Positions 37,827 through 59,723 of a DNA stretch of 64,000 nt are shown one piece after another. The stretch covers positions 2,542,001-2,606,000 of the forward strand of contig NZ_JABBYJ010000001.1 in the NCBI RefSeq assembly GCF_012932565.1, in the 5' to 3' direction. Source of the DNA: Sneathiella limimaris. Its GTDB lineage: Bacteria > Pseudomonadota > Alphaproteobacteria > Sneathiellales > Sneathiellaceae. The notes under the pieces are model-generated. The model ran no database searches and was not told the DNA's origin. It saw only the letters and a program-made list of their open reading frames with translations. Each line of letters opens with the position of its first letter. Position 1 is the stretch's first letter. The translations under genes were made by a program, and so were the position numbers.

Positions 37827-38996
37827 TCATTTACTCTTAAAAAAATCGTCAAGCCTTGTAATCGCTTCTTTCAAAACTTCTTCACGCTTGCAAAAACAGA
37901 ACCTGACAAAATTCGTTTTGGCGCCTTCAGAAGCATAGAATGCACTAACTGGAACTGCCGCGACCCCTGCTTCAGTTGTAATCAATCGGCAAAAATCCAC
38001 ATCACTACCTTGAAAGCCAATAGACTGAATGTCAGCATTCAAAAAATAGGTCCCATCACAGTCAGCCGTTTCAAACCCAATTTCTCTAAGACCGTTCCGG
38101 AAATAGTCTCTTTTACCCTGCATGCTGTCTTTGAGATTCTCATAAAAGAAATCATCCTTATTGAGACCAAAAGCAACCGCATTCTGCAAAGCCGGAGGTG
38201 TTGTAAAGGTTAGAAACTGATGGGCCTTTGCAATTCGAGCAATCAGTTCATCTGCACCCGTTATGTATCCAACTTTCCACCCTGTCAGTGAAAAAGTCTT
38301 CCCCGCAGATCCAATCCGAGCAGTTCTGTCTCCCATTCCCGGCAACGTGGCAAGAGGGATATGGGAATTTAGTCCAAAAACAATATGCTCATAGACTTCA
38401 TCACATACGGCGTAAGCATCATATTCCTGAATTACCTCAGAGAGAAGTTCTAGCTCTTCGATGGTAAAGACTTTGCCTGTCGGGTTCATTGGGTTGTTCA
38501 ACAAGACCAATTTTGTTTTTTCCGAAAAGGCCGCCCGCAAGCGTTCTTCCTCCAGATCCCAATGAGGTGGGTCCAGACGAACAAACTTAGGAATACCCCC
38601 TGCCCGCAGAACTAGCGGCAAATAACAATCATATAGTGGCTCCAGCAAGACCACTTCATCGCCAGGATTAATAAACGCCATCAAGCAATCTGCAAGAGCT
38701 TCTGTTGCTCCGGATGTGATTAGAACCCCGCTTTCCGGTTGCACCGCTATTCCATAGAACCGGTGGTTGGCATCAGTAACCGCCTGACGCAATTCCATCG
38801 TTCCCATCATCGGCGGATATTGATTAGGTCCTTCCGTAAGACCTTTGGCTGCCATAGCACGGACATCTTCCGGCCCATCCTCATCAGGAAAGCCTTGCCC
38901 TAGATTGATCGCCTTGTGTTCAATAGCCAATTTGGACATCACTTCGAAAATTGTTGTCCCAAAAGCGGATAAGACTTTGTTTGCCTGCTTTACCAT
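37827..38996 (-). CDS. PLP-dependent aminotransferase, class I/II
   Basis: A 389-residue fold-type I aminotransferase. N-terminal INLGQGFPDEDGPEDV, substrate-binding NNPMNPTGKVF, VCDEVYEHIVF with the PLP-contacting Asp and Tyr, and the PLP Lys in SAGKTFSLTGWKVGY. The N-terminus is closest in style to kynurenine/methionine aminotransferases (YbdL/KAT type). Exact substrate cannot be read from sequence. Divergent from the second aminotransferase, 86 bases apart. Confidence 0.9.
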   Translation of the reverse strand: MVKQANKVLSAFGTTIFEVMSKLAIEHKAINLGQGFPDEDGPEDVRAMAAKGLTEGPNQYPPMMGTMELRQAVTDANHRFYGIAVQPESGVLITSGATEALADCLMAFINPGDEVVLLEPLYDCYLPLVLRAGGIPKFVRLDPPHWDLEEERLRAAFSEKTKLVLLNNPMNPTGKVFTIEELELLSEVIQEYDAYAVCDEVYEHIVFGLNSHIPLATLPGMGDRTARIGSAGKTFSLTGWKVGYITGADELIARIAKAHQFLTFTTPPALQNAVAFGLNKDDFFYENLKDSMQGKRDYFRNGLREIGFETADCDGTYFLNADIQSIGFQGSDVDFCRLITTEAGVAAVPVSAFYASEGAKTNFVRFCFCKREEVLKEAITRLDDFFKSK

Positions 38997-39082
38997 TCCT
39001 CGCCCTAATCTTCCCTTGCAGTCACTGAGCCATAAGGCCTATCTTCACACGAAATTTAACACAAGTCTTTAGGGAAGTTATC

Positions 39083-41454: not shown

Positions 41455-41517
41455 TCCGGTTTGCACCACCTGCCCTGCAGGTAAAATAGAAATCATTGTT
41501 AACAGAGAGACACAAAT

Positions 41518-42930
41518 ATGACTGCAGAAATTTCTAAAGTGCTAGACATGATCAAGGAAAACGAAATCGAATATGTTGATCTTCGTTTTACAGATCCAAA
41601 AGGAAAATGGCAGCACCTTGCAATGCACGCTGATGCAATCGAGGAAGAAACATTCACTGACGGCATCATGTTCGACGGCTCTTCCATCACAGGCTGGAAA
41701 GCGATTAACGAATCTGACATGACTCTGAAGCCAGATGCATCTTCTGTCGTTATTGATCCATTTGCAGCACGCCCAACAATTATTTTGTTCTGTGATATTG
41801 AAGATCCAACTAGCGGTGAAGGTTACGAACGCGACCCACGCTCTGTTGCGAAGAAAGCTGAGGCTTACCTTGCCTCTACAGGTATTGGCGACTCTGCATT
41901 CTTTGGTCCGGAAGCTGAATTCTTCATGTTCGATGATGTTCAGTTCTCTAACGACAGCCACCACACATTCTTCAAGCTTTCAGATTCTGAAGCTCCATAC
42001 ATGTCTGGTGAAGATATTGACGGAGGCAACATCGGTCACCGTCCAGCAGTTAAAGGCGGTTACTTCCCTGTACAGCCTGTTGATAGTGGCGCAGACATCC
42101 GGTCTGAAATGGTTTCAGTCGCCAAAGAAATGGGCCTGAAAGTTGAAAAGCACCATCATGAGGTTGCACCTTCCCAGCACGAACTGGGCTTTAAGTTCAA
42201 CTCACTGGTTGGTGCTGCAGATGACATCCAGAAACAGAAGTATGTCATTCACAACGTCGCACACGCTTACGGTAAAACAGCGACATTCATGCCAAAACCA
42301 GTGGCTGGTGACAACGGCTCAGGCATGCACGTTCACCAATCTATCTGGAAAGAAGGCAAACCAGCTTTTGCAGGTTCAGGCTATGCTGGCCTTTCTGAAA
42401 CTGCTCTTTACTACATCGGTGGTATCATTAAGCATGCGAAAGCAATCAATGCTTTCACAAACGCTTCCACAAACTCTTACAAGCGTTTGATCCCAGGCTT
42501 TGAAGCTCCTGTTCTGTTGGCATACTCTGCACGTAACCGTTCTGCTTCTTGCCGTATTCCATTCTCTGGCAGCCCTAATGGTAAGCGTGTTGAAATTCGC
42601 TTCCCAGACTGTACTGCAAACCCATACCTCGCCTTCTCTGCAATGATGATGGCTGGTCTTGATGGTATTCAGAACAAAATCCACCCAGGCGATGCCATGG
42701 ACAAAGATCTTTACGATCTGCCAGCTGAAGAATTGAAAGATATTCCAACAGTTTGTGGTTCCCTGCGTGAAGCACTGGAAGCACTCGACGCAGACCGCGA
42801 ATTCCTGACCAAAGGTGATGTCTTCACAAACGACATGATCGATGGCTACCTGGCAGTGAAATGGGAAGATGTTTACCGCTTTGAACATGCTCCTCACCCA
42901 GCAGAATTTGCAATGTACTTCAGCGTATAA
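41518..42930 (+). CDS. glnA: Glutamine synthetase type I
   Basis: Makes glutamine from glutamate, ammonia and ATP; a dodecamer of 470-residue subunits. Conserved parts: [31 protein letters not shown] (metal ligands), [28 protein letters not shown], and the adenylylation Tyr in [11 protein letters not shown], so the enzyme is of the GSI-beta type controlled by GlnE and P-II. It lies 63 bases behind glnB and is followed by a strong terminator. Confidence 0.97.
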
Positions 42931-48597: not shown

Positions 48598-49503
48598 ATG
48601 AGTGCCCCGCAGCAGCAACAAAGCGGCGTGCTGATTATGGCCATGGCTATGCTGGCTCTTCCTGTCATGGATCTATTTGCCAAGCTACTGACCGAAACCA
48701 TGTCCCCTGGGTCCGTCGCTTTTGCCCGCTTCTTTGCTCAGTCCCTCATTATGCTTCCTTTCCTGTTTATTTCAGGACAACAAGGGCGCCCTACTCTTCT
48801 TCATCTCTTGGCGGGTCTTTTCCTGGGAAGTGCATTGGTCGCCCTTAACACGGCATTGAAAGCAATGCCGATCGCCAATGCCCTTGTTATCTTCTTTGTA
48901 GAACCCCTGTTTTTAACAATTTTATCTGCGGTTATCTTAAAAGAGGGGTTTGGATGGCGGCGAATGATTGCTGTTTTCCTCGGCCTTATAGGTGCGATTG
49001 TCGTTTTACGACCTAATTTTCAGGCCTTCGGCATTGCGTCCATCTTTCCGCTTATCACCGCCCTTTGTTTTTCTTGTTATCTTCTGATCACGCGTTTTCT
49101 CTCGCAAAAAGGCAGCCGTGTCTCTCTTAATTTCTGGACTGGCTTTTTTGCAGCCTCAGTTCTTGGCCTTGCATTAATACCTGGAACCCTATTTGAAATT
49201 GATATTTTTGCATTCGACTTGCCGACAGGACATCAGTTTTTTTATGTACTTGGTATGGGAGCATTGGCAGGTGTTGGACACTGGATGATCGCTCTTGCCT
49301 TCTCAAGGACTGAGGCTGGCGTTTTGGCTCCCTTGCAGTACCTGGAAATCATCTCCGCGACCATATTAGGCTGGCTAGTCTTCAACGAATTTCCGGACCC
49401 AATGACCTGGCTTGGAACTGTTATCATTATTGGGGCTGGTTTTTATGTATTCTATCGGGAGCGTAAACTCTCCAAGCCACAAGGACCTATCGTTATTGAT
49501 TAG
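48598..49503 (+). CDS. DMT superfamily transporter (EamA family)
   Basis: A 301-residue inner-membrane protein with ten helices in two EamA repeats (about 8-140 and 150-290). Typical blocks: MDLFAKLLTETMSPGSVAFAR, FVEPLFLTILSAVILKE and LEIISATILGWLVFNEFPDP. Likely exports or imports a small metabolite; the RAM-domain gene in front suggests an amino acid. Its last 11 bases overlap the end of the convergent TRAP permease gene. Confidence 0.88.
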   Translation: MSAPQQQQSGVLIMAMAMLALPVMDLFAKLLTETMSPGSVAFARFFAQSLIMLPFLFISGQQGRPTLLHLLAGLFLGSALVALNTALKAMPIANALVIFFVEPLFLTILSAVILKEGFGWRRMIAVFLGLIGAIVVLRPNFQAFGIASIFPLITALCFSCYLLITRFLSQKGSRVSLNFWTGFFAASVLGLALIPGTLFEIDIFAFDLPTGHQFFYVLGMGALAGVGHWMIALAFSRTEAGVLAPLQYLEIISATILGWLVFNEFPDPMTWLGTVIIIGAGFYVFYRERKLSKPQGPIVID

Positions 49504-50752
49504 AGATCAGGGCGACCTCTGGCAAGAAAGTCACAATCAATAAAACAACAAGGATTATGCCCATGAAGGGAAGCACTGATCTACAGATCAAGCCCAGCTT
49601 TTCCTTAAAGGCTGACATCGCCACAAGAAGATTGATACCAACTGGCGGCGTCAAAAAACCGACCTCGAGATTGATCACCATAATAATTCCCAAATGAACC
49701 GGATCGATGCCAAAATTTAAGGCCAGTGGCAAAAGAATGGGGGCAAGAATGAGAATTCCGGCATTAATATCCAAAAAACAACCAATGAGAAGCAGCAGAA
49801 TATTAATTGCGAGCAAAAAGGCGATGTCACTCTCGACAAAGCTGGCGACCCACGACGTAAGGTTTTGAGGGACCTGCTCAGTCGTAAGAAGCAAATTCAG
49901 GCTCATGGCAATTGCAAGTAAAGGAAACAAGGCTCCTAAAAGCTTCGCCGTCTCAATCGAGATGCCGTAAAGATCCTTGAGCGTCATCTCCCTATGAACA
50001 GCAACCTCAACAACTATGGCGTAGCAGAACGCCACTGCGGCGGATTCAGTTGGTGTAAAATAGCCTGAATAAATTCCTCCAAGAAGAATGACTGGCATCA
50101 TCAGTGACCAAAAACCCGATTGGACTGAAGCTCCTAACTTTCTAAAGCTAAAACCAGCTTTTGGTAGAGCCCAGTTGACCCTTAAAGCATAAATAGACAT
50201 GAGAATAGTCATGATAATGCCTGGTAGGATCCCAGCCTTAAAAAGGTCAGTGATCGATGTTTCTGTCACAATCCCAAAGAGGATCATGGGGATTGAAGGC
50301 GGGATAACAACCCCCAATGTGCCGCCTGAAGTCAGTGCGCCAAGCGCGAATTTACGGCTATACCCAGCCTCACAAAGCGCAGGATAGAGAATAGCACCAA
50401 CTGATAATAGAGTAACAGCGGATGATCCCGAGATCGCAGCGAAAACAGCGCAGGATAAAATTGTTGCAATTGCAAGGCCACCAGGTAGTCCTGCGGTCAG
50501 TTCCTTCATAATATTAATGAGGCGGAACGCGATCTGCCCCTTGGTCATGACATTGCCGCAAAGAATAAACAAAGGAACAGATAGGAGAACTTCCTTATCC
50601 AGTCCAATCCACATGTCTTCAATGATATATTCAAGAACACCATCGCCATAAAAGAAGTGGATATAAGCAGCCATGGCGAAAAGGATCAGAATCAGGTTTT
50701 GCCGGAGGATCAGCAAAAGTATCGGGAGCGCAATTAAGCCAAGCTCACTCAT
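49493..50752 (-). CDS. dctM: TRAP transporter large permease subunit DctM
   Basis: Transport channel of a sodium-driven TRAP uptake system. From the ATG at 50752 (MSELGLIALPILLLIL, with AAGGG in front) it has 419 residues and about 12 helices; a GTG five codons upstream is less likely. DctM motifs: LSVPLFILCGNVMTKGQIA, ISGSSAVTLLSVGAILYPAL, TSGGTLGVVIPPSIPMILFG and NLEVGFLTPPVGINLLVA. It overlaps dctQ by 8 bases. Confidence 0.93.
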   Translation of the reverse strand: MSELGLIALPILLLILRQNLILILFAMAAYIHFFYGDGVLEYIIEDMWIGLDKEVLLSVPLFILCGNVMTKGQIAFRLINIMKELTAGLPGGLAIATILSCAVFAAISGSSAVTLLSVGAILYPALCEAGYSRKFALGALTSGGTLGVVIPPSIPMILFGIVTETSITDLFKAGILPGIIMTILMSIYALRVNWALPKAGFSFRKLGASVQSGFWSLMMPVILLGGIYSGYFTPTESAAVAFCYAIVVEVAVHREMTLKDLYGISIETAKLLGALFPLLAIAMSLNLLLTTEQVPQNLTSWVASFVESDIAFLLAINILLLLIGCFLDINAGILILAPILLPLALNFGIDPVHLGIIMVINLEVGFLTPPVGINLLVAMSAFKEKLGLICRSVLPFMGIILVVLLIVTFLPEVALISNQ

Positions 50753-51260
50753 GGCCGCGCCCTTCACTTTTCGCTAAAAGCTGGAAGTGTTCTTTGTCCG
50801 AGGGATAACAAGCAAAAATGACATACCTTAGTGTAAGAGCAAAGAAGCTATAAGGCAGCACCAATTGAATTGGCCATAACGGCCACTCAAGAACAGCCGC
50901 CGTCTCTCCATTTAAATAAGTGCTTTGGACAAACGAAATCGCAAGAACACCCAATGCTCCGTATAAAAGAGCTGCGACAAAATCTGACATTCTATCCACG
51001 GCCCAACTGAACCGAACAGAAACCACTTTATCAAGGAGTTGAGGTCTTATTTGCTCCCCACTTGCTGAAGATAGGGACATACCCAAAAAACCAGCACTTA
51101 TTGCAGCATATACCGCAAATCTTGGCGCGCCCCACACGCCGCTCCCAATGAGTTCACGACCAGTAATGTCAATGACGAGGCTTAAGGTTGCGGCACCATA
51201 CGCGAAGGTTGCAATCCAAGCCTCCAGACGGAAGTGAAAAATGAGAAATCTAAGCACCAT
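50745..51260 (-). CDS. dctQ: TRAP transporter small permease subunit DctQ
   Basis: A 171-residue membrane protein with four helices that holds DctM and receives the substrate from the binding protein. Conservation in this family is low; the assignment rests on helix pattern, the VIDITGRELIG and RFAVYAAISAGFLGMSLSS regions and the position between dctP and dctM. No strong ribosome-binding site before the ATG. Gap to dctP is 29 bases. Confidence 0.85.
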   Translation of the reverse strand: MVLRFLIFHFRLEAWIATFAYGAATLSLVIDITGRELIGSGVWGAPRFAVYAAISAGFLGMSLSSASGEQIRPQLLDKVVSVRFSWAVDRMSDFVAALLYGALGVLAISFVQSTYLNGETAAVLEWPLWPIQLVLPYSFFALTLRYVIFACYPSDKEHFQLLAKSEGRGHE

Positions 51261-51289: not shown

Positions 51290-52285
51290 TTAATTGGTAC
51301 AGGCCCGTTTCGCTTCCTCGATTTGTGCATAAATAGGTTTGGCGTCGCCCCCAAGATCTTCAATCAAACTATCTCGTGCGGCCTTGGCTGTCCTTCGCCA
51401 ATTCGCCATCTGGTCTGCATTAAGTTCGATGACACGTCCCCCATTCTCAGAAAACTTTGCAAGAGAGCTTTTTTCAGCACCCCTTACCATTTGGCGGAGT
51501 TTCACTGGACTTTGCCTTGCTTTGAGAAAAGCTGATTGCTGTTCGTCACTCAATCGTTTCCAAACTTTTTGACTCATGAGCACCATTCCAACCTGGTGAG
51601 AATGATTGGAAGCAATCCAGTTGGGAGCTATTTTTGAAAACCCAAGCGCTGTGTAAACTAAGCCCGGCAGATCAGCTCCTTCAACCAAACCCGTTTGAAG
51701 TGCTGAAGCGACTTCCGTTATAGGAAGAACTACCGCGTTTGCCCCAAACCCGTCAGCCGTCAGTGAAGAAGCTTTTGTCGGCGCAACACGCATTTTTTTG
51801 CCAGCTAAATCTGCCAATCCATTCACAGGGCTGGTGAAGGCGTAACCCCTATTGCCAACTTCCGTCCACCCAAGAATTATTAATCCTTTTTCTTCAAACT
51901 TATTTTGGAAAATAGAAAATAGATGATTATCCAAAGCACAATCCGCTTGCTCCAAGCTGTCCCAAATATAAGGAGCCGCCAATAACGCTATCTCCGGAAC
52001 CATAAGGCTGGCAGCGGTGTTGGAAAAAGAGCCCATATGGATACGCCCTCTAGCCACCTGCCGGATAACGTCCTGCTCATTTCCTAATTGGCTCCCTGAA
52101 AAAACCTGAACTTTTATTGTCCCGGAAGTATCTTTTTTAACTGATTCCGCGATTTGATGAGCGTATATCGCCCAGGGAGTTTTTTCTGGAGCAGCTGTAC
52201 TGAACCGAATTTCCGTTTCTGCCCTAACGGAACTGCCCCCGACAGTAAAAACCATCAAAAATATTAGAAAAAACATTCGCCCCAT
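51290..52285 (-). CDS. dctP: TRAP transporter substrate-binding protein DctP
   Basis: Periplasmic solute receptor, 331 residues, with a signal peptide (MGRMFFLIFLMVFTVGG, cleavage near SVRA-E). Family blocks: IRFSTAAPEKTPWAIYAHQI, GSQLGNEQDVIRQVARGRIHMG and GLADLAGKKMRVAPTKAS with the Arg that usually binds a substrate carboxylate. The ligand is probably an organic acid; the linked TauD-type dioxygenase suggests it may be the oxygenase substrate. Strong Shine-Dalgarno sequence GGGAGGG. First gene of dctPQM, divergent from tetR. Confidence 0.92.
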   Translation of the reverse strand: MGRMFFLIFLMVFTVGGSSVRAETEIRFSTAAPEKTPWAIYAHQIAESVKKDTSGTIKVQVFSGSQLGNEQDVIRQVARGRIHMGSFSNTAASLMVPEIALLAAPYIWDSLEQADCALDNHLFSIFQNKFEEKGLIILGWTEVGNRGYAFTSPVNGLADLAGKKMRVAPTKASSLTADGFGANAVVLPITEVASALQTGLVEGADLPGLVYTALGFSKIAPNWIASNHSHQVGMVLMSQKVWKRLSDEQQSAFLKARQSPVKLRQMVRGAEKSSLAKFSENGGRVIELNADQMANWRRTAKAARDSLIEDLGGDAKPIYAQIEEAKRACTN

Positions 52286-52460
52286 AAGACCGCCCTCCCC
52301 ATCAGTTGGTACACACCAAAAAGCAGCACATTATTTTAGACAAAAACACTTAATCAGTGCAATTATCCACCCCACAAACGCCCATCACCACACACTATCA
52401 GCGTTCGCTTGCATCATTCTTGACATTAATACTGGCATTTCAAAATTTACATCTTTTATA

Positions 52461-52482
52461 AATTATAATTATAGTTATAATT
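52461..52482. promoter_or_regulatory. Candidate TetR operator 1 (between dctP and tetR)
   Basis: A 22-bp near-perfect palindrome of two 11-bp halves, AATTATAATTA and TAGTTATAATT (10 of 11 positions pair). It contains the 13-mer ATAATTATAGTTA that recurs exactly at 53292-53304 in front of tauD. Parts of it (GTTATAAT) recur again at 52529 over the likely tetR -10 (TATAAT, 52531-52536) and at 52598. AT-rich sequence raises the chance of coincidence. Confidence 0.5.
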
Positions 52483-52603: not shown

Positions 52604-53248
52604 ATGGAAATTCAAGCAAAGGGTGTAAAACCAGCATTGCAAGGCAGAAGTCGGCAACGAAGAGATGAACTGATCAACGCCGGCATGATCCTTATGCAAG
52701 ATAAGAGTTTCGCTGATATATCTATTATCGACCTGACGGCTCATTGCGGATATTCAGTTGGCACCTTCTATAGCCGATTTGAGGATAAGGAAAGTTTTTT
52801 CAAAGCTGTTCAAGAAGCAGCAACGGCCTCGACACGAGCCCAGCTTGAAGAGGAATTTTCTAAACCTTTTTGGAAAACAGCTTCTCTTGAGGAAATCTTC
52901 ACCAAGCTAGTCAACACTCTTTTTGAACTCATAGCTGGCCCCCACAAAGGTGTTGTTAGAGCCTCCATCGTTTTGTCAGGTTCTGACCCAGAAATGTGGA
53001 AACCTATCCATGAGGCCGGCATTCACATTCGAAAAATGATCTTGGGCTTACTTGAAGAACGGTATTTAAAGTCAGATCCAGATAAATCCATTAAGAGTAT
53101 AGAGTTTGCCTTGCAGATGTTTTTTGGAACCGCAGTGCAGGCCATCCTGAATGATCCAGGACCAGTTCGCCTAACCGACCCTGAAATGCGACAAAACCTA
53201 ACACGTATGTTTCTCACTTATATTATTCTGGAGCCTGATAAAACCTGA
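52604..53248 (+). CDS. TetR/AcrR family transcriptional regulator
   Basis: A 214-residue repressor-type protein. The N-terminal DNA-binding domain reads SRQRRDELINAGMILMQDKS, then DISIIDLTAHCGYSVGTFYSRFEDKESFF, a standard TetR helix-turn-helix with the GTFYSRF recognition end. The remaining helices form the ligand and dimer domain. Divergent from dctPQM (318 bases between) and 65 bases ahead of the tauD start proposed here, so it probably senses the transported or oxidised compound and controls both units. Confidence 0.92.
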   Translation: MEIQAKGVKPALQGRSRQRRDELINAGMILMQDKSFADISIIDLTAHCGYSVGTFYSRFEDKESFFKAVQEAATASTRAQLEEEFSKPFWKTASLEEIFTKLVNTLFELIAGPHKGVVRASIVLSGSDPEMWKPIHEAGIHIRKMILGLLEERYLKSDPDKSIKSIEFALQMFFGTAVQAILNDPGPVRLTDPEMRQNLTRMFLTYIILEPDKT

Positions 53249-53286
53249 CAAACGAGGCCCCCAACTGAAAACTATGTCTTTTTATA

Positions 53287-53304
53287 TAACCATAATTATA
53301 GTTA
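53287..53304. promoter_or_regulatory. Candidate TetR operator 2 (directly before tauD)
   Basis: Inverted repeat TAACC-ATAATTAT-AGTTA; the arms TAAC/GTTA and the ATAATTAT core are perfectly symmetric, with only the bases between them unmatched. It shares a 13-base identity with operator 1. It ends one base before the GAGG ribosome-binding site of tauD and overlaps a -10-like TATATAAC, so binding would block transcription start. Confidence 0.55.
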
Positions 53305-53313
53305 GAGGAAACA

Positions 53314-54156
53314 ATAACTAAAGACTACAGCCATTTTACGGCCACCCCCCTTACTCCCACCTTGGGAGCAATGATTAGCGGAATAGATTTGACAAAAAAT
53401 AATCCGCCTGAAGCCTATCAGGCTCTGAGAAGAGCTCTAACGGATTACAAAGTCATATTTTTTCGCGATCAAGACATGTCCGACGAAAAATTTCTAAAAC
53501 TTGGACAGAGTTTTGGGGTCCTTGAAGTACATGAGTTTTTTCCCACCAAAGAAGGATTCCCGGAAATACAAGTCATCAGCACAACTGGAGGGAATACTGG
53601 AACCGATCGCTGGCACACTGACGTGACATTCAGAGAGCGCCCCTCCTCGGCAAGTATACTTAGAGCCATTGATATTCCCCCAGAAGGCGGCGGAGATACA
53701 ATGTGGCTTTGCACGAATGCAGCTTATGAAAACTTGTCCAAACCCATTCAGAAGCTGCTGCTTGTACTGGAGGGCGTTCATGACATCCGATTTGGAATGA
53801 CGGGATACCTGGACAACAAAACAGTCGAGAGGACAGTGAGTGAAAATCCTCCTCATACACATCCCGCTGTCATTGCCCATCCCATGACCGGGGCCCCTCA
53901 CCTTTTTATCAATTCCATTTGGACTAACGCGATCAAAGATTTGTCCAGAGAAGAAAGTCAGGCCCTTCTTCAACTGCTGTATGAACATGTCAAAAAACCA
54001 GAGTTTCAGGTTCGTTTTCGATGGGATATTAACTCAGTGGCCATTTGGGATAATATCGCCACCCAGCACTATGCGCTCGGAGACTACCAATATAACCGTG
54101 TGATGAATAGAATGATTGTAGATGGTGTACCACTTAACGCCTATGCCACCAATTGA
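53314..54156 (+). CDS. TauD/TfdA family 2-oxoglutarate-dependent dioxygenase with apparent ATA start
   Basis: Non-heme iron oxygenase that couples 2-oxoglutarate decarboxylation to hydroxylation of a small acid such as a sulfonate or aryloxyalkanoate. Fe ligands are the His and Asp of WHTDVTF and the His of ATQHYALGDYQYNR, whose Arg would bind 2-oxoglutarate. The frame is open from 53302. The family-typical N-terminus FTATPLTPTLGAMISGIDL lies upstream of every ATG, GTG or TTG except a TTG at 53362 with no ribosome-binding site. GAGGAAACA precedes ATA at 53314, which would give 280 residues. This is either a rare AUA start or a start-codon mutation. Confidence 0.82.
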   Translation: MTKDYSHFTATPLTPTLGAMISGIDLTKNNPPEAYQALRRALTDYKVIFFRDQDMSDEKFLKLGQSFGVLEVHEFFPTKEGFPEIQVISTTGGNTGTDRWHTDVTFRERPSSASILRAIDIPPEGGGDTMWLCTNAAYENLSKPIQKLLLVLEGVHDIRFGMTGYLDNKTVERTVSENPPHTHPAVIAHPMTGAPHLFINSIWTNAIKDLSREESQALLQLLYEHVKKPEFQVRFRWDINSVAIWDNIATQHYALGDYQYNRVMNRMIVDGVPLNAYATN

Positions 54157-58377: not shown

Positions 58378-58421
58378 CCAAAACGGCAGACCAGTAACAA
58401 GTATAGATAGACGGAGGAAAC

Positions 58422-59723
58422 ATGTCTCGCTTAACCCCCCCAAAAAAGGAAGAGCTGGACCCAATTGAGATCGCTAGTCGGGACGAAATTTCGGCACTGC
58501 AGCTGGATCGTATGAAATGGTCCGTGAAGCATGCCTATGACAATGTCCCACTCTTTAAAAAGCGGTTTGATGAAGCTGGTGTTCATCCGTCTGATCTGAA
58601 AGCTCTCGAAGATCTTGGAAAGTTGCCTTTTTGCTATAAACAAGATCTTCGGGATAACTATCCATTTGGAATGTTTGCAGTTCCTCAAAAAGATATCGTT
58701 CGACTTCATGCTTCCTCTGGCACGACAGGCAGGGCAACTGTTGTCGCCTACACAAAGAACGATATAGATAATTGGGCTGATATGGTTGCCCGCAGCATTC
58801 GGGCATCTGGTGGTCGACCTGAACATATGGTTCATGTCACTTATGGATATGGATTGTTTACAGGTGGTCTTGGTGCTCATTATGGAGCTGAAAGACTGGG
58901 TTGTACTGTTGTTCCTTTTGGCGGAGGTCAAACGGAAAGGCAGGTTCAACTGATCACGGACTTCAAGCCTGATATTATTATGGTAACCCCTTCTTATATG
59001 ATGGCAATCGCAGAAGAGTTTAAACGGCAGGGTTTGGATCCCGCCGCAAGCTCATTGAAAGGCGGTATCTTTGGTGCTGAGCCCTGGACTGAAGCTATGC
59101 GCCAACAAATCGAAGCCGTGTTCGATATGGATGCGTTGGACATTTATGGGTTGTCCGAAGTCATGGGGCCTGGCGTTGCAAACGAATGCATCGAAACCAA
59201 AGACGGCCTTACGGTTTGGGAGGATCATTTCTATCCAGAAATCATTAATCCAGAAACAGGCGAAGTCCTGCCGGATGGAGAAACTGGAGAATTGGTTTTC
59301 ACAACCCTTGCCAAGGAAGCCTTCCCTGTCATCCGCTATCGGACAGGCGATTTAACACGATTACTTCCTGGCACAGCACGTTCCATGCGCCGGATCGAAA
59401 AAATTACAGGGCGCGTGGATGATATGCTGATTATCCGGGGCGTAAACCTTTTCCCAAGCCATGTTGAAGACTTGGCCGTCGCGACATCAGGCTTAACAGC
59501 TCATTATGTGCTAGAAGTCACACGCGAAGGTGTCATGGACGAATTGACTGTTAAGGTTGAGCGTGATCCAATTGGCGATCGCGATGAGTCTGTTGGCCAT
59601 GAACTCCAAAAAAGAATTAAGTCAGTTCTCGGCGTGACTTCAAAGGTCATCGTTTGTGAACCTGGTGATTTGGAACGTTCTGCCGGGAAAGCAAAAAGGG
59701 TGATTGATCATCGCAAACTCTAA
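58422..59723 (+). CDS. paaK: Phenylacetate--CoA ligase
   Basis: Activates phenylacetate to phenylacetyl-CoA with ATP, the entry step of the pathway. The 433-residue adenylate-forming enzyme has the P-loop ASSGTTGRATVVAYT, YGYGLFTGGLGAHYGAE, FGAEPWTEAMRQQIE, and the hinge/C-terminal KITGRVDDMLIIRGVNLFPSHVE. Strong Shine-Dalgarno sequence GGAGGAAAC. Last gene of the cluster; the epoxidase genes paaABCDE and the hydrolase paaZ are not in this window. Confidence 0.95.
   Translation: MSRLTPPKKEELDPIEIASRDEISALQLDRMKWSVKHAYDNVPLFKKRFDEAGVHPSDLKALEDLGKLPFCYKQDLRDNYPFGMFAVPQKDIVRLHASSGTTGRATVVAYTKNDIDNWADMVARSIRASGGRPEHMVHVTYGYGLFTGGLGAHYGAERLGCTVVPFGGGQTERQVQLITDFKPDIIMVTPSYMMAIAEEFKRQGLDPAASSLKGGIFGAEPWTEAMRQQIEAVFDMDALDIYGLSEVMGPGVANECIETKDGLTVWEDHFYPEIINPETGEVLPDGETGELVFTTLAKEAFPVIRYRTGDLTRLLPGTARSMRRIEKITGRVDDMLIIRGVNLFPSHVEDLAVATSGLTAHYVLEVTREGVMDELTVKVERDPIGDRDESVGHELQKRIKSVLGVTSKVIVCEPGDLERSAGKAKRVIDHRKL

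Follow-up and report, generated by a model that had tools for sequence, protein, structure and literature searches.

A TauD-type dioxygenase gene of Sneathiella limimaris with an ATA codon at the position of the ancestral ATG start

The window analysed here, a 64,000-nucleotide stretch of the Sneathiella limimaris genome, carries a TauD-type dioxygenase gene (tauD) next to regulator and transporter genes. The TRAP transporter genes dctM, dctQ and dctP lie on the minus strand, followed on the plus strand by tetR, tauD, a GGDEF gene and an enoyl-CoA hydratase gene. The features of the locus are as follows:

49493-50767, minus strand: TRAP transporter large permease DctM (TIGR00786, E 3.2e-112)
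50745-51260, minus strand: TRAP transporter small permease DctQ (Pfam DctQ, E 1.4e-14)
51290-52285, minus strand: TRAP transporter binding protein DctP (Pfam DctP, E 5.5e-54)
52460-52477, no strand assigned: second operator candidate, in the dctP-tetR gap (3 mismatches)
52604-53248, plus strand: TetR-type regulator gene (Pfam TetR_N, E 1.8e-07; present with 52-62% identity at each of the five orthologous loci)
53287-53304, plus strand: near-palindromic operator candidate TAACCATAATTATAGTTA, abutting the ribosome-binding site on its upstream side
53305-53308, plus strand: GAGG, Shine-Dalgarno core, 5 nt before ATA (pairing -6.0 kcal/mol)
53314-53316, plus strand: ATA in place of the ancestral ATG start (ATG here in four of five orthologs, two codons later in the fifth)
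53314-54156, plus strand: gene for a TauD/TfdA-type Fe(II)/2-oxoglutarate dioxygenase, read from ATA (Pfam TauD, E 1e-54)

For comparison, we used five orthologs with 63-68% identity, from UBA6062, S. glossodoripedis, the Sneathiellales MAG.259 and two same-genus genomes (G016 and G010); the set combines the three best (L034-L036) of 64 loci with L005-L008, of which L005 and L006 coincide with L034 and L035. The tetR and dctP genes (some of them cut) are present at all five orthologous loci and the GGDEF gene at four; dctQ, dctM and the hydratase gene were found at the three longest loci, the remaining ones being too short to tell. At up to three mismatches, the operator candidate occurs at just two places in the window (53287 and 52460), where 0.03 would be expected. 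All five orthologs carry operator-like sites (2-4 mismatches) between dctP and tetR, and four also carry them, with at most 3 mismatches, ahead of tauD, where G016 has none by this rule; UBA6062 has one additional 4-mismatch site elsewhere. It is probable from this arrangement that the TetR-type regulator acts on both operator candidates flanking its gene, controlling the TRAP transporter as well as tauD. The neighbouring genes also suggest that the locus would serve to take up and oxidize a sulfonate or similar acid.

TauD/TfdA dioxygenases are defined by an HxD...H iron triad and a C-terminal Arg. Both are present in the protein encoded here: WHTDVTF, ATQHYAL and NRMIVD, which we take to be the metal-site motifs with catalytic roles, were located and aligned with their counterparts in E. 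coli TauD. The match to PF02668 (186.7 bits, profile positions 2-266 of 267) extends over the whole length of the family, and the fold is covered by solved homologs, as the E. coli TauD structure 1gqw matches with E 1.5e-65 and aligns with residues 8-270 of the ATA-started protein. We left the substrate unassigned, since the score against the NCBIfam taurine dioxygenase model NF007104 (E 1.2e-77, 260.9 bits) falls below the equivalog cut-off of 313. Thus, despite the alignment with E. coli TauD, taurine is not assigned as substrate, and, unlike the E. coli gene, the one described here adjoins TRAP transporter and TetR genes.

Downstream of a TAG stop at 53299-53301, frame 53302-54156 (plus strand) runs uninterrupted to a TGA at 54154-54156 and, when translated from 53302, reads LEETITKDYSHFTATPLTPTLGAMISGIDL. 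A preliminary description of this DNA had stated that the conserved N-terminal strand is encoded upstream of any normal start, and this is indeed the case: no ATG, GTG or TTG precedes the conserved first block TPLTPTLGAMISGIDL, and the earliest canonical in-frame codons, TTG 53362 and then ATG 53371, both lie within it. Equally as described, ATA 53314 is the sole start-like codon between the stop and the block, with GAGG positioned five bases upstream across an A-rich AAACA spacer. At tauD, the absence of a canonical in-frame start ahead of the conserved N-terminus thus goes together with an ATA at the homologous start position and a ribosome-binding site at the usual spacing, as would be expected of an AUA start.

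We calculated Shine-Dalgarno energies by pairing alone, against an assumed 16S anti-Shine-Dalgarno tail. By this crude measure, pairing at the tauD ATA (-6.0 kcal/mol) falls within the range of the orthologs (-4.2 to -10.2 kcal/mol), four of which pair more strongly, and of ten other starts in the window (-0.1 to -9.1 kcal/mol). Translation might instead begin at TTG 53362 or ATG 53371 and yield a protein lacking the first strand. The TTG shows no pairing (+2.9 kcal/mol), in agreement with the preliminary description, but, against the picture given there, GGGAG is located 2 nt upstream of the ATG and, by pairing alone, is even slightly better than the site at ATA (-6.5 versus -6.0 kcal/mol). 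A 2-nt spacing is tighter than usual, however, none of the five orthologs has a start codon at either position, and the block that would be lost aligns with E. coli TauD from TauD residue 5 onward. Such a downstream start is, in our view, very improbable. A further conceivable route is coupling, in which a short frame from ATG 53274 to TAA 53319-53321 would feed ribosomes to the ATA. Its overlap with ATA 53314 is visible in the sequence, but the sole GAGG ahead of the short frame (53254-53257) is 16 nt away from ATG 53274, and no equivalent frame was seen by eye in the five orthologs; we give coupling next to no credence. A promoter scan returned six promoter-like sites compared with a shuffle mean of 2.5, and a terminator scan zero sites. 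As a separate observation, the inverted repeat TAGTTA/TAACTA (53299-53304 with 53315-53320) might fold into a small hairpin that has the Shine-Dalgarno site within its loop and two of the ATA bases in its stem. This hairpin (53299-53320) was set aside because 14 of 200 shuffles fold equally well.

The upstream alignment with close relatives that had been proposed for this site bears on its history. All five orthologs start with ATG, four at this very codon and that of S. glossodoripedis two codons later; G010 has an extra in-frame ATG six codons upstream, within its operator. The leader alignment agrees, as illustrated by UBA6062 (ATAACCATAATTATAATTAGGAGGAAAAATG) versus the window (ATAACCATAATTATAGTTAGAGGAAACAATA). 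Judged from these alignments, the ancestral tauD start is ATG, and an ATG-to-ATA change is present in this assembly. As none of the five orthologs has ATA at the tauD start, we do not regard it as an old regulatory device; conservation of a near-cognate start among relatives, a feature of IF3-regulated starts of the infC kind, is not seen at tauD.

We also asked how often a gene of the window lacks a canonical start. Twenty-three likely genes were hand-picked from the window frames, the rest being mostly shadow frames, and set against 80 kb of S. glossodoripedis sequence, a canonical start being sought up to 8 codons into the match. Two frames had none in that range, namely tauD, with its first canonical codon 16 codons into the matched stretch, and 37830-39038 (minus strand). 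Since the latter has an ATG 9 codons in, giving an ordinary 389-aa gene, tauD stands alone among the 23.

A change of one base in one assembly, at a site where the orthologs have ATG, naturally raises the question whether sequencing or assembly introduced the A in error and the base is really G. No second copy of the start site was found in this species, nor was a second same-species genome, and an exact DNA pattern across the start site (third base A or G) had zero matches in viral_contigs. On the other hand, the genome comprises 3 contigs with a total of 3,658,464 bases, at completeness 100 and contamination 0.01, and each of the 23 compared window frames is unbroken, although the latter is not a test for systematic errors. 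We consider an error unlikely.

More weight has to be given to the idea that the ATA is effectively silent and that tauD is a very young pseudogene caught before decay. The ATG in all five orthologs would fit such a recent loss, as would the accessory character of the gene: an ortholog with more than 60% identity was found in 4 of 23 other same-genus genomes, and the own genome encodes three more distant relatives (38%, 31% and 29%). The protein itself argues in the opposite direction. Of the 2520 single-base changes possible in its 280 codons, 94 would create a stop, yet the frame has none. When each protein was left out in turn and departures were counted at positions invariant in the rest, the window TauD departed at 4 of 122 positions, the fewest of all six (6/124, 7/125, 7/125, 10/128 and 9/127 for the others). 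In the same test, the neighbouring proteins of the window gave 4/78 for TetR (others 3-5), 8/172 for the enoyl-CoA hydratase (others 8-13), 15/176 for DctP, the highest of four (others 11-14), and 16/161 for the GGDEF protein, the second highest of five. TauD thus shows no sign of decay at the sequence level, with the reservation that this test can do no more than limit how old a loss might be. Together with the evidence from infC considered below, which suggests that AUA is usable, this leaves recent loss as a possible but rather doubtful explanation.

In the same genome, infC, which encodes IF3, appears to start with ATA as well. It reads TAAGGAGAAGGTAA ATA GCA CGT CCA, with the ribosome-binding word AAGGAG ahead of the ATA; upstream of the conserved block, canonical codons are limited to one ATG, which follows 8 codons after the ATA and lacks a ribosome-binding word. 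Pairing amounts to -9.1 kcal/mol and is thus stronger than at tauD. A search of 23 genus genomes gave 22 infC loci, own genome included and G016 giving none; under a permissive rule that asks for a 4-letter ribosome-binding word upstream and includes no chance control, all 22 have ATA plus such a word at the same codon. No canonical codon precedes the block in 17 of them, and a later ATG is present in 5. The class-wide search covered 31 genomes including the window's own and retrieved loci from 29 of the other 30. By the same permissive rule, these 29 loci of other alphaproteobacterial families divide into 22 with ATA plus word near that position, 3 with ATC only, 1 with ATT only and 3 with none; 17 of the 29 lack a canonical codon before the block, and one of the remaining loci (L137) has a GTG with its own ribosome-binding word. 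The ATA at infC in this genome and at all 22 genus loci argues that this organism can probably use AUA as a start, though one disfavoured by IF3. A limited literature library yielded no paper on an ATA start of alphaproteobacterial infC.

Published work offers several points of reference. In S. aureus, non-canonical starts are described as reaching about 10% of AUG, with ccpN AUA up to 30% in rich medium, and AUA starts are documented for infC, ccpN and citZ (PMC13009471). In view of these cases, and of most class infC loci looking alike, the emphasis that the preliminary description placed on the rarity of AUA starts was slightly too strong. The citZ start of the NCTC 8325 lineage resembles that of tauD in being a lineage-specific AUA start of a metabolic gene; it operates at about 10% of AUG and was found by ribosome profiling and measured with reporters, whereas the tauD start is known from sequence alone (PMC13009471). 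The identical single-base start-codon change is reported for rpoS, where the ATG>ATA mutant had RpoS lowered up to 5-fold (PMC12864459). In contrast to tauD, that change arose during laboratory cultivation, affects a regulator gene and was followed by measurement of the protein level; the same paper credits an AUA efficiency of 'up to 1%' to Hecht et al. 2017. For Listeria monocytogenes rsbW, an anti-sigma factor gene, reporter activity followed the order ATG > ATA > ATT, and ATG>ATA was found in two closely related strains among ~60,690 genomes (PMC13068326). Here, the likeness to tauD lies in the change itself, the difference in its having been acid-selected in the laboratory as well and in the kind of gene affected. 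Autoregulation of infC via a near-cognate start is described for E. coli (ATT) and Streptomyces (ATC) (PMC5472188) and for S. aureus (AUA) (PMC13009471); as at tauD, that codon follows a ribosome-binding site, but it is a conserved regulatory start, which the tauD ATA is not. Drawing on this range in other bacteria, the yield from the tauD AUA may perhaps be 1-30% of that from AUG.

We consider an ATG-to-ATA substitution with weak, IF3-dependent translation from AUA the best explanation, and hold it with reasonable, though far from complete, confidence. According to this model, a single substitution would have struck the tauD start codon in this Sneathiella lineage; ribosomes would still initiate at AUA, positioned by GAGG, the initiator tRNA reading the codon with a third-position mismatch; and intact enzyme would be made at a lowered level set by IF3 activity, as expected of infC in the same cell. 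The dioxygenase is then probably made weakly. The preliminary description had posed an AUA start and a silencing or weakening ATG-to-ATA change as alternatives. Both ideas gain support and are not mutually exclusive, and we favour weak translation over silence because the protein is intact without excess changes and infC apparently starts with ATA in the same genome.

It is also imaginable, though we think it improbable, that the AUA was fixed because it is useful, bringing an accessory dioxygenase, like infC, under the control of IF3, with TetR control on top. The enzyme would then be held low and tied to the state of the ribosome. Quite apart from this, genes of this type will be missed or truncated by gene finders that look for starts at ATG, GTG or TTG. 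The locus represents an apparent natural ATG-to-ATA start change for which the ancestral state is known, the protein is intact, and a conserved, apparently ATA-started infC serves as internal reference; tauD would make a clean test case for AUA-start yield in an alphaproteobacterium.

The frame comparison with S. glossodoripedis gave some minor observations beyond tauD. The alignments of dctM and of 41503-42927 are broken, and these breaks lie on the S. glossodoripedis side, since the window frames are unbroken. In the draft of S. glossodoripedis JCM 23214, dctM (L035, ~137-139) is in two pieces in different frames, reflecting a frameshift or a draft error, and frame 58407-59720 of the window aligns to S. 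glossodoripedis in three pieces.
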